From Ditibartonella apis (GTDB lineage: Bacteria; Pseudomonadota; Alphaproteobacteria; Rhizobiales; Rhizobiaceae): DNA of 64,000 bases. The notes under the pieces are model-generated. The model was not told the DNA's origin. It saw only the letters and a list, made by a program, of their open reading frames with translations, and did not search any database. The position numbers and the translations under genes are program-made. Positions 45,242 to 56,331 of the stretch are shown in pieces. Position 1 is the first letter of the stretch; the number at the start of each line of letters is the position of its first letter. Location of the stretch: contig NZ_LXYU01000004.1 of assembly GCF_001952075.1 (NCBI RefSeq), positions 248,001 through 312,000 on the forward strand. Direction: 5' to 3'.

Positions 45242-45949
45242 TATCGGCATAAAAATTTAAAATGCGACTATGCTTATGACCACTTATGAGATGTCAGTTG
45301 CAGCATTTTCGCTGGTTTCGTTTATGACTTTCGGGAGCCTGTTTTTTGATTGATGATTGAGAAGCGACTTCCGAAACCTCATGCGATTGAAACGTTGTTC
45401 TAGTACGCCGATGAACCGTCAGATTACCGGCATTGATATGGTATCGGCTTCTTTGAGTTTTTCGATATTTACAATCAGGCTATTCGCAATGATTATTACA
45501 GCAATTTAAAAAGCCTTTGAAGTTCTTCTAGACTGCCGTTAGCAACGTTAACCTGGTATTCCAATTGAAAGAACGACGGAGGGTTGTTCGTCTCAAAAAC
45601 GACAGCATAGGCTTCTCATTTCGGGCAGCTCTATAATGCAGACAAACGCCTGTGAACACCCGATTTTTGATCGTTTTTTAATGCGCCCCTTCAGGTGCAT
45701 TCCGTTACCAGCATATTCCTCGTCATTGATCAAATATGAACGCTAAAGCAATTCCCAATTTTATTGTCTAATTTTATTGATTAATATCAATTTCAACGCA
45801 GAGTTTTTTTGATAGATACAGAGGGAACAATTAAACTAACTGTCTTTTTCGTATGTACAATCGTCGACATTTTTAAACCGAACGGACTTCAAAAACAATA
45901 CAACAAGCAAATGCCATATTCATATAAAGGCCGGAAGAGGCGGGTTCCT
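45242..45949. other. Intergenic stretch after acvB
   Basis: About 700 bases with no supported gene. Frames near 45271-45354 (27 codons) and 45409-45507 (32 codons) are hydrophobic but lack ribosome sites. A consensus FNR box stands at 45777-45790. No terminator for acvB was recognised. Confidence 0.45.
45777..45790. promoter_or_regulatory. Consensus FNR/FixK-type box
   Basis: TTGAT-TAAT-ATCAA matches the FNR/FnrL/FixK consensus TTGAT-N4-ATCAA in all ten defined positions. It lies beyond the 3' end of the small lipoprotein gene (minus strand) and 536 bases past acvB, so the controlled transcript is unclear. Confidence 0.4.
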
Positions 45950-50248: not shown

Positions 50249-51485
50249 GATGGTCTCCTTCATTGGCTAGGAACACATGAATATTTTCCGAACTCGTTCA
50301 GTTGGTCCACGCATTCCAACAGTGGTTTTTTGACGAATTTTACAGTGGGCGCCCGAAAGCGCACCCTTCGAGATATGGATTGTTTTTGTAATCAAACAAG
50401 TTGTTTTTTGATTATTTCGAACTTATTATCAAAAATATATATTGGATTTTGTATTGATAAAAATAAAACTTCCACCTCAATCGTACTGTTATATTTTTAA
50501 CTTTTCTATATTGTTTCGTTTATGGAAAAAAAGGCGAATGCATACCTAAAATTATTGAATTTTCAAAATTTATCAATTGTTGAAAATAAATTTTTTAATA
50601 ATCCGGACAACTTATGTTCCGGATCATGATCCAAAGTATTTTTTTGGTCAAAATAGTCTTTGGCTGACTTTCATACACTCTACGGTTGATTGACTGATAC
50701 TTTCAAACAGCCAGCTATTTTAATTATTTCCTCTTTTCATGAAATCAAAAAACCCGAGGTTACCAACAAAATGTTCCCTCACACTCAGCGTAGCTTGACC
50801 AAATTTTTGAAGGTTTTTTTGTAGATGTTTACATCCGGATGATCGCGTATCCGACCGTATGAACGGGATTATCAGATGAGAGGGCGCTGTTGAACAAACC
50901 TTAAATTGGTGATTAGCCATAATTTCTCCACCATTACCGAAGTTTTATGCAAAAGTGATGAGAATAATTACGGCACCGAATTAAAAACAGATAGACCGGT
51001 CACTTCTCATAAGCATTCCAAGCAAATGACGGACAATAAACATGACAGTATAATTTAGAAAACAAACCATGCTGAGCATAACTGATTGATATACGCTATG
51101 CAGATTTTACTGATAGAAAAATTATGAGGTCGGAATCAGCGAAAATAAATGATGTTAAAAACTTGTGCTTAAAAATCCGCTTTTACAATTTTTCTCATTG
51201 TGAAAATTATTAATGTACCAAAATTGGATACCTTCGTGACACATTTTTTGGTAATTGATAAATGTTAACTCACAACTTGCTGTTTTTTCAGCGCATTTTA
51301 ATTTTTTTTATTTTTTTGGGAAAATTTTTTTCTGTCACGAAATAGTGATATTTTGCAACTATGAATAGTTCGTTGCGTTTATGTAACGCAAACCGGAGTG
51401 CTTGCCTGTTTTGGAGGTAGAAACAGGTTTAAAGGTTACGAAGAGAGAAATTGAATATAATGTTGTATAGAAGGATGCCAAAAAT
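50249..51485. other. 1.2-kb AT-rich divergent spacer between adhP and the Tor-like operon
   Basis: No supported gene. It contains a 12-bp palindrome GGATCATGATCC (50621-50632) next to a 7-bp inverted repeat ATCCGGA/TCCGGAT, a weak FNR-like site TTGAT-N4-GTTAA (51255-51268), a TCAC-N6-GTGA dyad (51335-51348) and a 7-bp inverted repeat at 51373-51391. Two such sites near the operon start suggest regulated transcription. Confidence 0.5.
51373..51391. promoter_or_regulatory. Candidate operator before the Tor-like operon
   Basis: TTGCGTT, five bases, AACGCAA: a perfect 7-bp dyad whose end lies 95 bases before the cytochrome start codon. It may be a regulator site or a leader hairpin. No regulator gene of the TorR/DorR type is present in this window. 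Confidence 0.4.
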
Positions 51486-53108
51486 ATGAAACGGCTAACC
51501 CGATGGTTTTTGGTCCTTGTTGTAATAGGGATCGTAGGTTTTTTTGTCCTTACCTCCCCGATCACTTGGTCACTTACTCATCCCACACGAGACGTTGCTG
51601 ACAATTCTGCGCCGGATTTGGAAAATGGGCGCATTGTGTTTGTCGCCAGTGACTGCTCGACTTGCCATGCTTCGCCCAATCAGGATAACCCGTTAAAACT
51701 CGGTGGCGGGCGTGCATTGGACACAGAATTCGGGCGTTTTTATATGCCTAATATTTCGTCGGATAAAAAGGACGGCATTGGTAACTGGACACTTGAACAG
51801 TTCACTAAAGCGGTCCGTGAAGGTGTAGGGCCGAATGGCATCATGCCCGATGGACAAAACCTTTATCCGGCATTTCCATACACGTCATATCAGCGTTTGA
51901 CAGCAAATGACGTTCGCGATCTTTTTGCCTACATCAAGTCGCTCGAACCTGTGCAAGGTGTTGCACCTGATCATGATTTGAAATTCCCGTTCAATATGCG
52001 TCGCGGCGTTGGTGTTTGGCGCTTGGCTTTTCTTGATGGCAAACCGTTGTCACCAATGAAAGTTACTCCGACCACTGACACAAAAGACACTAAAGATGAA
52101 CAGGCTCTTCTTGAGCGTGGACGTTATCTTGTTGAAGGTGCCGGACACTGTGCAGAATGCCATTCGACACGTAATTTTATGGGCGTGATAAAGAGCAATC
52201 TACGTTATGGCGGCGGTTCTACTCCTGATGGTAAAGGGCATTTCCCGAACATCAGTCAGGATGATACAGGCATTAAATTCTGGGCTGAAAATTCGATTTT
52301 CAACTATTTGAAAACCGGTCAAAGCCCGATTAACAAAATCGCCGGTGGTGATATGGCGGAAGTTATCAAAAATACGAAGCAACTTCCTGACGGGGATCTT
52401 CGTGCTATGGCTGCCTATATCAAAACATTGCCAGGTGTTGATCTGCCGGCTCCCGGACAGCCTGAATCCAACCATACTTCAAAGCTTGTTATGCTACCCA
52501 CGACAAACAAACTTGATGTTACTTTGCCGACATCGACAGATAGCGCGGTTAAAGGTGCAGACACACTATATGCAGTCTACACAAAACCGTTCTATATTGA
52601 CGAAAATGGTTCAGGGGACGAGGACGGTAAACTTCTGGCCGCAGCAAAACTTGCCGTGCTCGACCACAAAGGCGATAAGCTGAAAGTTCGCCTTGACGGT
52701 TGGCAAATGGCTGGCGCCCCCTCGGTTGTCTATGCTTTACAGGGCCAACGAATTATGTATGCGGTGTTGGGTGACAAAGCGATGGCGTCCTACAAGCTTG
52801 GAAAAGCCGTTGTAGATCCCGAGACAAAGCAAACGTGGTACCCTGTCAGTGTCGAACTGTGGACAAGTGACAAGGATGTCAACGTTTCGATCGGTGATAT
52901 GTGGTCGTACACGTCGGATCTTTTCAGTGCGACGTGTAGCGTTTGCCATTCACTACCTGAACCCGGGCATTTGCTTGCCAACCAGTGGATCGGTAATCTC
53001 AATGCAATGAAGCGCTATACTTCATTGACTCCCGATCAATACCGGTTGCTCCTGAGCTATCTTCAGAACCATTCAAAAGATGTGAATGAAGATCAAGAGG
53101 TACACTAA
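51486..53108 (+). CDS. Tri-heme cytochrome c: AdhB-like di-heme module fused to a TorC-like C-terminal heme domain
   Basis: A 540-residue membrane-anchored periplasmic cytochrome. One hydrophobic segment (residues 7-23) is the anchor. Three CxxCH heme sites are seen: CSTCH 57-61, CAECH 222-226 and CSVCH 484-488. Residues 45-320 look like two domains of alcohol dehydrogenase cytochrome subunits (FGRFYMPNISSDKKDGIGNW; RGRYLVEGAGHCAECHSTRN). Residues 355-532 look like the C-terminal domain of TorC (DTLYAVYTKPFY; GHLLANQWIGNLNAMKRYTS). The tetraheme NapC/NirT half of a normal TorC is absent. Its place before torD and the TorA-like reductase makes it the likely electron donor to that enzyme. AAGGA precedes the ATG. 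Donor and redox partner are inferred. Confidence 0.88.
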   Translation: MKRLTRWFLVLVVIGIVGFFVLTSPITWSLTHPTRDVADNSAPDLENGRIVFVASDCSTCHASPNQDNPLKLGGGRALDTEFGRFYMPNISSDKKDGIGNWTLEQFTKAVREGVGPNGIMPDGQNLYPAFPYTSYQRLTANDVRDLFAYIKSLEPVQGVAPDHDLKFPFNMRRGVGVWRLAFLDGKPLSPMKVTPTTDTKDTKDEQALLERGRYLVEGAGHCAECHSTRNFMGVIKSNLRYGGGSTPDGKGHFPNISQDDTGIKFWAENSIFNYLKTGQSPINKIAGGDMAEVIKNTKQLPDGDLRAMAAYIKTLPGVDLPAPGQPESNHTSKLVMLPTTNKLDVTLPTSTDSAVKGADTLYAVYTKPFYIDENGSGDEDGKLLAAAKLAVLDHKGDKLKVRLDGWQMAGAPSVVYALQGQRIMYAVLGDKAMASYKLGKAVVDPETKQTWYPVSVELWTSDKDVNVSIGDMWSYTSDLFSATCSVCHSLPEPGHLLANQWIGNLNAMKRYTSLTPDQYRLLLSYLQNHSKDVNEDQEVH

Positions 53109-53773
53109 TGGCTGTTGCTCAATCAGAAACGTCGTCGGTCGAAAATCGACAAATATCCACTCAAGAAGATCAGGCTCAGGCCACAATTATCGACTGGTTT
53201 GCCCAGTTGTTTATTGCACCGCCCGGCATCGAAACAGTTGAGAAATGTCGTTCACTTCCCGTTATGACTTTTCTGGGCGAATTTGGTGAAGAGCTTCAAG
53301 CTGTTGAATTGACAACAATGATTGCGGATTTTTTCCGCAATCATTCGGTCGAAGAGCTCAACCACCTTCTTTCGCAACAATACATAAGTTTGTTTGATGG
53401 CGCTTCCGGACCTCTTTCGGTTCCTCCCTATGAAAGCTATTATCGGGATGAAAATGGAAGATTGTTTCAAGCGCCTTATGTTGAAATGTTGGATGTGCTG
53501 ACGAAACTTGACGTTTCGGTAAAGTCTTCCTGCAAGGAACCGGCCGATCATATAGCTTTGGAATTGGCCGCTTTGGCCGAAGCTTTTCGCCAACATGACA
53601 CGGATGCCATTGCCGACATGATAGCACGTCTGGCTTTATGGCTACCTGAAATGAATGCAGCGCTGGGTAAAGTGGCCAGTCACAGTCTCTATGCCCATTT
53701 GGTCGAGTTGCTTATTATTTATCTTTCGTCTTTTAGTCGCCTCTTTGGCAACCAAGACAACATTAAACACTAG
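53108..53773 (+). CDS. torD: TorD/DmsD-family molybdoenzyme chaperone
   Basis: A 221-residue cytoplasmic chaperone that binds the Tat signal of the reductase and helps molybdenum cofactor insertion. The family signature is visible as PPYESYYRDENGRLFQAP, followed by the conserved EPADHIALELAALAEA (the 'E-x-DH' motif). The protein is otherwise helical. Its ATG overlaps the cytochrome stop by one base (TAATG) and the TorA-like gene follows nine bases later, so all three are translated together. The order cytochrome-chaperone-reductase is that of the Rhodobacter dor operon. Confidence 0.9.
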   Translation: MAVAQSETSSVENRQISTQEDQAQATIIDWFAQLFIAPPGIETVEKCRSLPVMTFLGEFGEELQAVELTTMIADFFRNHSVEELNHLLSQQYISLFDGASGPLSVPPYESYYRDENGRLFQAPYVEMLDVLTKLDVSVKSSCKEPADHIALELAALAEAFRQHDTDAIADMIARLALWLPEMNAALGKVASHSLYAHLVELLIIYLSSFSRLFGNQDNIKH

Positions 53774-53782
53774 GAGAATGCG

Positions 53783-56287
53783 ATGTCATTCGACAAAACA
53801 AAAATTACCCTACCGGAAATGAACCGCCGTTCATTTCTTAAAAGTAGTGCTATGTTGACCATGGTCGGTGCCGCGAGCGGTTCACTTCTCAGTCGCGGTG
53901 CACAGGCTCAACCCGCCTCCAAATTGACTATGTCGGGCAGTCACTGGGGTGTTTTCCGCGGCCGTGTTGACCATGGCCGTCTGGTTGAAGTTATACCTTG
54001 GGAACATGACCCGCATCCAACGCCGATGTTGGAAGGCATGATGGATTCAATTTATTCGCCTTCGCGTATTAAATATCCGATGGTTCGTCGTGCCTGGCTC
54101 GAAAAAGGTCCAGGTGCCGATCCTGAAGGGCGTGGAACAGGTGACTTCGTTCGCGTAAGCTGGGATAAGGCTATTGACCTTGTTGCCGGCGAATTGACAC
54201 GCGTTCGCAAGAAATATGGTTCGAACGGACTTTTCGGTGGTTCATATGGCTGGAAAAGCGTTGGCAAATTCCACAATTGCCGGACATTGTTGCGCAGAAT
54301 GTTGAAGACAACCGGTGGTTTCGTAAACTCGCTTGGCGATTATTCTACCGGCGCCGCTCAGGTTATTCTGCCGCACGTTGTCGGGTCTCTTGAAGTCTAT
54401 GAGCAATGCACATCATGGGACGTTGTAAGAGATAATACCAAGACGCTCGTATTCTGGGGATGTAATCCCGTGAATACAGACCAGATCGGCTGGTTGATCG
54501 CTGATCACGGTGCATTTGTAGGCCTCGAAGAAGTTAAGAAAGCCGGTATCCGCGTTATCTGTATAGATCCTATCAAAACAGAAACCTGCCAGTACCTTAA
54601 CGGTGAATGGCTGGCACCTCGCCCGCAAACCGACGTTGCCATGATGCTTGGTATTGCCCATACACTCTACGCGGAAAAACTTCATGACGAAGAATTTCTG
54701 AAAAAATATACCGTCGGCTTCGATAAATTCCTTGCCTATCTGATTGGCAAAGAAGATGGAACACCGAAAACTGCCGAATGGGCTTCGAAAATTTGCGGCA
54801 TTGATGCCGATATCATCAAACAGCTCGCTCGCGATTTTGCTAAAAACCGCACAATGATTGCGGCCGGTTGGTCTATCCAGCGTCAGCATCACGGCGAACA
54901 AGCCCACTGGATGTTGGTCACTCTCTGCTCGATGCTGGGACAAATCGGTTTGCCAGGTGGCGGATTTGGCTTCTCCTACCACTATTGCAGTGGTGGCGCG
55001 CCGACTGCAACGAGTCCTATTCTCGGTGGTATCACTGATGGACCTGCAGCTCCCGTAACGGATTTGCCCGCTGGTTGTCATCCCGGTTCGACTGAATCCG
55101 CCTGTCAGCCAAAATCGAACTCGATTCCTGTTTGCCGCCTTGTCGAAGCCCTTCTCCATCCGGGCAGAACCATAAAGTATAACGGGTCCGACATTGTCTT
55201 GCCTGAAATTCATATGGTTTATTGGGCTGGCGGTAATCCGTTCTCGCACCAGCAGAACCGTAACGAAATGGTTGAGGCCTGGAAAAAACTCGACACATTT
55301 GTTGTCCACGACTTCCAATGGACTGCATCGGCACGTCATGCAGATATTGTCTTACCTGTAACAACCTCTTACGAGCGCAATGATATCGAGCAATTGGGCG
55401 ACTACGCATTGAGCCACATCGTTCCGATGAAGAAACTCGTTGAACCAATGTATGAAGCACGTTCCGATTTCGACATTTTCAGCGATATCTGTGAACGTCT
55501 TGGTAAACGTGACGAATACACTGATGGCATGAATGAAATGGACTGGATCAAGAGTTTCTATGAATCAGCCCGTCTTGAATCTCGTGCCAAAGGCATGGAG
55601 ATGCCGGTTTTTGACACTTTCTGGGAGAGTGAAGAAGCACTCGGTTTCCCTGTCAAGGAAGCGCAAAAACAGTTTGTCCGTTACGCAGATTTCCGCGAAG
55701 ACCCGCTGCTCAATGCTTTGGGTACACCTTCCGGGAAAATCGAAATCTACTCGCTCAACATCGAGAAGATGCATTATGACGATTGCCCTCCCCACCCCAC
55801 ATGGATGGAGCCGATCGAACGTCTCGACGGGCCGACAACAAAATATCCACTTCACATTGCATCCAATCACCCGATTTATCGTCTGCACTCACAATTGTGC
55901 GGTACTAAATTGAGAGAGAAATATGCAATCGGCGGACGTGAACCATGCTGGATTAACCCGAAAGATGCAGAAGCACGTGGTTTGAAAGATGGTGACATTG
56001 CTCGCGCTTATAACGATCGTGGACAGATTCTTGTCGGTATCAAAGTAACCGACGTTATCCGCCCGGGCGTTATTCGTATCAACGAAGGTGGTTGGTATGA
56101 TCCGGTTAACCCGAGAGAGCCGAATTCACTTTGCCGCTATGGCGATGTCAACAACTTGACGACCAGTGTTTCTACGTCAAAATTGGCTCAGGCTAATTGT
56201 GGACAGACAGCGGTCGTGGAAATCGAAAAATTCACTGGCACACTTCCACCGGTTGAAGTCTTCGATGAACCACGTAAAGCTGGTTGA
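53783..56287 (+). CDS. torA: Periplasmic molybdopterin S-/N-oxide reductase (TorA/DorA/TorZ family)
   Basis: An 834-residue enzyme exported by the Tat system: Arg15-Arg16 in MNRRSFLKSSA, cleavage near residue 43 (AQAQP). The family features are clear: GGSYGWKSVGKFHNCRTLLR, the molybdenum ligand Ser188 in GDYSTGAAQ, the cofactor region AGWSIQRQHHGEQAHWM and the C-terminal LHIASNHPIYRLHSQL. There is no N-terminal cysteine cluster for an iron-sulfur centre, as in TMAO, DMSO and biotin-sulfoxide reductases. A Tyr in SYGWKS matches the DorA Tyr114 position. The natural substrate (TMAO, DMSO, methionine sulfoxide or other) cannot be read. AGGAG precedes the ATG. It ends the operon at a strong terminator. 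Confidence 0.93.
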   Translation: MSFDKTKITLPEMNRRSFLKSSAMLTMVGAASGSLLSRGAQAQPASKLTMSGSHWGVFRGRVDHGRLVEVIPWEHDPHPTPMLEGMMDSIYSPSRIKYPMVRRAWLEKGPGADPEGRGTGDFVRVSWDKAIDLVAGELTRVRKKYGSNGLFGGSYGWKSVGKFHNCRTLLRRMLKTTGGFVNSLGDYSTGAAQVILPHVVGSLEVYEQCTSWDVVRDNTKTLVFWGCNPVNTDQIGWLIADHGAFVGLEEVKKAGIRVICIDPIKTETCQYLNGEWLAPRPQTDVAMMLGIAHTLYAEKLHDEEFLKKYTVGFDKFLAYLIGKEDGTPKTAEWASKICGIDADIIKQLARDFAKNRTMIAAGWSIQRQHHGEQAHWMLVTLCSMLGQIGLPGGGFGFSYHYCSGGAPTATSPILGGITDGPAAPVTDLPAGCHPGSTESACQPKSNSIPVCRLVEALLHPGRTIKYNGSDIVLPEIHMVYWAGGNPFSHQQNRNEMVEAWKKLDTFVVHDFQWTASARHADIVLPVTTSYERNDIEQLGDYALSHIVPMKKLVEPMYEARSDFDIFSDICERLGKRDEYTDGMNEMDWIKSFYESARLESRAKGMEMPVFDTFWESEEALGFPVKEAQKQFVRYADFREDPLLNALGTPSGKIEIYSLNIEKMHYDDCPPHPTWMEPIERLDGPTTKYPLHIASNHPIYRLHSQLCGTKLREKYAIGGREPCWINPKDAEARGLKDGDIARAYNDRGQILVGIKVTDVIRPGVIRINEGGWYDPVNPREPNSLCRYGDVNNLTTSVSTSKLAQANCGQTAVVEIEKFTGTLPPVEVFDEPRKAG

Positions 56288-56301
56288 ATGCAGTAAAAAT
56301 A

Positions 56302-56331
56302 AAAGGAGGCGGGTTTTCGCCTCCTTTTTTT
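56302..56331 (+). terminator. Rho-independent terminator of the Tor-like operon
   Basis: AAAGGAGGC (56302-56310), 8-nt loop, GCCTCCTTT (56319-56327) and more T: a perfect 9-bp stem 14 bases after the stop codon. Confidence 0.93.

Follow-up and report, generated by a model that had tools for sequence, protein, structure and literature searches.

The gene at positions 51486-53108 of the window (the whole stretch of 64,000 nucleotides analyzed here) encodes a two-part cytochrome, here called torC*, in which a diheme head is joined to a TorC-type tail and which is followed by torD and torA in one operon. We favor, with a probability of about 0.55, a reading in which this hybrid is a membrane-anchored triheme donor for the periplasmic TorA. 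The head would draw electrons from ubiquinol at the periplasmic face of the membrane, without proton pumping, and pass them to the TorC-type monoheme domain, carried on an SH3-like hinge, which would in turn deliver them to the Mo center of TorA. This last transfer would follow by homology from E. coli TorC, and the substrates are presumably S-/N-oxides. The features of the unit are listed below.

51486..53108, plus strand: hybrid triheme cytochrome (torC*), an ORF of 540 aa with an ATG start
51498..51560, plus strand: N-terminal membrane anchor, judged by eye to cover about residues 5-25, predicted helix 2-22 in the model
51615..52445, plus strand: diheme head, residues 44-320, with two CXXCH motifs, from sequence and fold matches
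51744..51746, plus strand: codon of Met87, from the alignment of heads
51873..51875, plus strand: codon of Phe130, a position occupied by Met (PAMPY) in FdhC, AdhB and 4 of the 5 triheme relatives
52545..53096, plus strand: TorC-type C-terminal part, residues 354-537, from the TIGR02162 match, the model and a fold search
53108..53773, plus strand: torD, TorD-type chaperone (PF02613, E 6e-21; NF003442, E 3e-20, below cut-off)
53783..56287, plus strand: torA/dorA, molybdopterin guanine dinucleotide S-/N-oxide reductase of 834 aa, from profile matches
56301..56328, plus strand: terminator-like hairpin 3' of torA, the end of the unit, from a hairpin search

The three CXXCH motifs (residues 57-61, 222-226 and 484-488) and the single N-terminal anchor described in an earlier note on this DNA are indeed present. 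On the opposite strand, frame 1 is interrupted by many stops across the gene, and the longest minus-strand ORF within it, among ORFs of at least 90 aa, spans 91 aa. Residues 31-329 show matches to the cytochrome subunit of fructose dehydrogenase (7w2j_C, E 5e-55), to AdhB (8gy2_B, E 1.9e-44) and to the cytochrome of aldehyde dehydrogenase (8gy3_A, E 5.6e-39); the AdhB-type match stops at residue 329, and the remainder is TorC-type. Residues 354-537 align with positions 202-386 of the 387 in NCBIfam TIGR02162 (torC; E 1.2e-46), in agreement with the TorC-like C-terminal half that the note had placed at 355-532. With 159.8 bits, the full-length protein remains below the family's cut-off of 478.2, which is to be expected given that the tetraheme half is absent. 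By the predicted model and the fold search, the tail would consist of an SH3-like stretch at about residues 356-467 followed by helices that bear the third CXXCH. A profile search found no match to the NapC/NirT domain PF03264 in the protein, so that, with a tail of TorC type, the proposal of a replaced quinol-oxidizing half holds; NapC-type matches are likewise missing among the best 50 Foldseek matches listed, which carries no weight as proof. Chance or artefact was rejected as an explanation, since the two-part ORF recurs within the genus, where 12 of the 61 genomes have it, and is also found in many other genera.

The hybrid resembles the pentaheme TorC/DorC family (TIGR02162) in its C-terminal part, its N-terminal anchor and its torD and torA partners, but those proteins have a NapC/NirT tetraheme half and five CXXCH motifs, whereas the hybrid has three and no tetraheme half. 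With the triheme subunits of FdhC, AdhB and aldehyde-dehydrogenase type it shares the first two heme domains in fold and sequence; their third heme domain is replaced by the TorC part, their PAMPY Met by Phe, and their genes adjoin a dehydrogenase subunit, whereas torD-torA adjoins the hybrid gene. The start of torD overlaps the stop codon of the cytochrome gene by one base (TAATG). TorA exceeds the cut-offs of TIGR00509 and NF011682 and falls below that of TIGR02164; a twin-arginine leader is hinted at by a weak match to PF10518 (E 6e-4, below cut-off), and the closest solved relative is the DMSO reductase 1e18_A, which we take to be of Rhodobacter origin.

This two-part architecture is widespread and no peculiarity of the locus. 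Genome surveys with the tail as query, in which one best match per genome was judged, returned matches for 12 of the 61 genomes in the genus, every one a hybrid. Matches were found in 4 of 199 genomes at the level of the family (two hybrids and two classical proteins), 25 of 397 in the order (two hybrids, 22 classical five-CXXCH TorCs and one odd protein of 328 aa with two CXXCH), 6 of 385 in the class (the hybrid of this genome and five classical proteins) and 30 of 398 in the phylum (two hybrids, 21 classical, one tail-only and six weak fragments), the family, order and phylum counts likewise including this genome's own hybrid. Outside the genus, hybrids are a minority among TorC-tail proteins. 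Named records, metagenome bins included, were scanned with an alignment of 13 hybrid rows and two short head peptides; the scan is a sample and no census, in which at least 285 matches were confirmed and 79 loci kept, 47 matching over both halves and 32 over the head only. An ORF with three CXXCH motifs is present in 45 of the 47 two-part loci. The neighborhood that the earlier note had thought worth looking for elsewhere recurs almost throughout them: torA lies 3' of the hybrid in all 47 (truncated at the edge of the contig in L090 and L091), and torD is present in 46, the exception being a Cereibacter locus (L070). In this locus and in L203, also from Cereibacter, torA comes immediately after the hybrid, and torD was not found between them. 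The hybrid ORF of L066 runs past the 5' contig end; that of Cupriavidus pauculus (L099) is broken across two frames, as is its torA; and that of Commensalibacter intestini A911 (L062, 5983-7605) has an in-frame stop ahead of its last part, either real or a sequencing error.

The nearest protein among named records, at 99% identity, is from an uncultured Bartonella, followed by those of B. apihabitans (95%) and B. choladocola (93%), both described from the honey-bee gut to judge by a reference title in PMC10149009; the present genome is accordingly taken as that of a Bartonella from the bee-gut group. Among 608 matching plasmid records, 8 span at least 80% of the query; the three inspected all carry an annotated torA, torZ or dmsA downstream, and the Cereibacter record among the plasmids has no annotated torD. 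The plasmid copy of Rhodovulum sulfidophilum is annotated cycG, diheme cytochrome c-type, a gene name for which no paper was found in the open literature, and public records carry such genes under labels like cytochrome c. The neighbors of the operon differ between two Bartonella groups and Commensalibacter (nine loci, L055-L057 and L059-L064, compared with the window), which suggests that the cytochrome gene, torD and torA move as a three-gene unit among insect-gut bacteria.

The AdhB-like head proposed earlier proved right in part: the match to FdhC and AdhB stands, but the closest kin are N-anchored diheme cytochromes and not the triheme AdhB proteins. Judged by the homology of head and anchor and by Phe130, the head belongs to this diheme class, apart from the triheme AdhB type. 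The nearest relatives are the stand-alone dihemes of Microvirga, Chelatococcus and Alsobacter (48% identity to L101, anchor included), with whose N-terminus the anchor aligns (GF..LTSP). Unlike the hybrid, they have no TorC tail, and neither torA nor torD was found in any of the 32 head-only loci. Their neighbors are the large subunit of a xanthine-dehydrogenase-type Mo hydroxylase in 8 of 32 loci and urate genes in 21 of 32, which suggests that the stand-alone proteins accept electrons from enzymes.

In a tree of heads from 40 hybrids, 28 stand-alone dihemes and 5 trihemes, with near-identical rows thinned and the long-branch dihemes L158 and L159 left out, the hybrids form a single clade (100/100) within the diheme class and the trihemes stand separate (100/99); a second, similarly thinned tree (46, 31 and 5 rows) gives the same picture. 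Direct descent from a triheme AdhB is not favored by these trees, which hold only five triheme rows. When all rows are used, the tail tree places L039, a classical long-branch row, among the hybrid tails, and an AU test does not reject a single hybrid group (p 0.339); after removal of L028, L029, L038, L039 and L040, 44 hybrid tails are set against 32 others with a branch support of 100. The TorA tree, built on the N-terminal 235 aa from 48 rows linked to hybrids and 28 classical ones (no usable row came from ten loci), separates the two kinds apart from L039. It does not reject one hybrid group (p 0.573), and the free quick version needs two changes (starred branches) because of L039. These trees are consistent with a single fusion, short of proof.

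Met occupies position 87 in all 51 hybrid heads, in none of 50 stand-alone dihemes (mostly Val, Ala or Thr) and in none of 5 trihemes. At position 130, where the PAMPY Met is presumably the heme-1 ligand of FdhC/AdhB-type subunits, all 51 hybrids and 49 of the 50 dihemes have Phe. Position 125 is Asn in 49 of 51 hybrids and His in 45 of 50 dihemes, and His163 is shared by all 51 hybrids and 43 of the 50 dihemes and is found in none of the 5 trihemes. Since many hybrid rows are closely related, these counts do not represent independent events. The sixth ligand of the first heme may have changed, to Met87 or His163. The predicted model has a pLDDT below 50 at residues 118-128. Two stand-alone dihemes of Microvirga (L119 and L127) also have Asn125 and lie outside urate or Mo-hydroxylase contexts.

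As to where the electrons come from, gene content was compared across 37 distinct hybrid-bearing genomes, namely this one, 11 others and those that carry 27 of the 47 named loci, with duplicates (3 of 39 entries, recognized by matching coordinates) removed. A profile search that matches in the E. coli control found no PF03264 protein in this 2.6-Mb genome, which answers the earlier note's question about a separate NapC and leads us to reject such a supply here. The domain is absent from 23 of the 37 genomes, 11 of these being of the window's genus, and from 12 of the 26 outside it, Rhodopseudomonas sp. AAP120 and Rhodovulum kholense among them; a separate NapC thus cannot be required. MenD and the MqnA family are both under their cut-offs in 35 of 37 genomes, MenD being above it only in Afifella (weaker, thiamine-enzyme-type matches occur in all) and MqnA only in G026, by a partial match of 27.8 bits against 26. 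Most hybrid genomes therefore seem to be without menaquinone and are taken as ubiquinone-only.

Several lines converge on ubiquinol as the likely donor: the homologies of head and tail, the association with torA and torD, the missing NapC and the low menaquinone markers, together with the separation of hybrid tails and TorAs from the classical ones. Against it stand the enzyme-linked stand-alone dihemes and the opposite direction of the triheme kin, a family known for ubiquinone reduction, of which quinol oxidation is the reverse. The available text of PMC9171043 has the triheme relatives of acetic acid bacteria exchanging electrons with ubiquinone, which also counts in favor. As given in PMC11727998, the tetraheme half of E. 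coli TorC accepts electrons from menaquinol and hands them on to the C-terminal domain, which is regarded as the part that feeds TorA; the same source assigns tight binding of TorA to the tetraheme half, and the absence of that half from the hybrid counts against the proposed reading.

The rival that survives best, though we hold it to be rather unlikely, is that cytochrome bc1 feeds the hybrid, directly or via a soluble cytochrome c. Gene content is compatible with this route, as bc1 cytochrome b is present in 37 of 37 hybrid genomes, and the head is recognized by PF00034, a cytochrome c family. Yet bc1 is common in these classes, so that the former count may weigh little. A precedent exists in C. 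jejuni, where, according to the available portion of PMC6195509, TMAO reduction runs from menaquinol through Qcr, with TorB (Cj0265) as the proposed link. Like the hybrid, TorB is there a homologue of the TorC C-terminal part without a NapC-type half and is paired with TorA; unlike it, TorB is small, soluble and monoheme, whereas the hybrid retains a membrane anchor. The same portion of that paper calls a ubiquinol equivalent of the Qcr-TorB route unfavorable against a typical proton-motive force, which, with the low MenD and MqnA scores, argues for ubiquinol oxidation without bc1. Short frames of 216-285 aa that match the tail (L194 of G1334, with one CXXCH, and G212, G257, G293 and G449), some in this order, look too small for a NapC-type half and are reminiscent of TorB.

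It is improbable, in our estimate, that a periplasmic dehydrogenase feeds the head in a quinone-free short circuit to TorA. The idea draws on the FdhC/AdhB relatives, which are dehydrogenase subunits, on the stand-alone dihemes that adjoin Mo hydroxylases or urate genes, and on this genome itself, where a triheme AdhB-type cytochrome gene (L053, G000:C6:534111) lies just 3' of a GMC dehydrogenase gene, the two probably forming a sugar or sugar-acid oxidizing complex. However, relatives of this GMC dehydrogenase or of the xanthine-dehydrogenase-type large subunit, the two families searched for, were found in none of the 47 hybrid loci (38 of which span at least 13 kb), and the TorC part stands where the triheme subunit has its third domain. 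The 5' neighbor of the hybrid gene is a divergent, opposite-strand gene for a zinc-type alcohol dehydrogenase, of a sort that is usually cytosolic. That another membrane quinol dehydrogenase (NapC or classical TorC) is the entry point, with the head merely relaying, is very improbable, given that a PF03264 protein occurs in 14 of the 37 hybrid genomes but in none of the other 23, this one among them (several being draft assemblies).

Returning to ubiquinol as the donor, we propose tentatively, at somewhat below even odds, that a diheme module of AdhB/FdhC type, working backwards as a ubiquinol dehydrogenase, is a third electron supply for periplasmic S-/N-oxide reductases besides NapC/TorC and bc1-fed TorB. 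On this view the hybrid would stem from a single fusion and would have spread as a compact cassette among alpha-, beta- and gammaproteobacteria, and its first heme may be re-tuned, with the invariant Met87 serving for the lost Met130 ligand. If so, periplasmic TMAO/DMSO respiration would have a third, modular electron entry point, a cytochrome family of oxidative dehydrogenases could serve as quinol oxidase for a reductase, and oxide respiration by ubiquinone-only bacteria without NapC or TorC would be explained. The hybrid is also a natural domain swap that separates the roles of the quinol-facing and reductase-facing halves of TorC, of value because the tight binding of E. coli TorA is assigned, in the available part of PMC11727998, to the half that is absent here. 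In keeping with the earlier note, which knew of no described system of this kind, we found no description of the head-and-tail architecture in the open literature (subscription papers lying outside this scope); the accessible parts of PMC6134056, PMC4464133 and the Commensalibacter paper PMC10149009 contain nothing on it, and no structural paper on the UQ site of FdhC/AdhB was found in the same literature.

Between the zinc-type alcohol dehydrogenase gene and the operon lie 1.2 kb of AT-rich sequence in which no clear gene is seen (50264-51485 of the window). A site that differs from the FNR-type box (TTGATNNNNATCAA) by a single mismatch is found there at 50454, about 1 kb 5' of the start of the hybrid gene, and two further sites, at 50577 and 51255, have two mismatches each. 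A perfect TTGATTAATATCAA palindrome is found at 45777-45790, and near-matches to it number 82 in the window, against a mean of 60.6 and a maximum of 77 in 100 shuffles.
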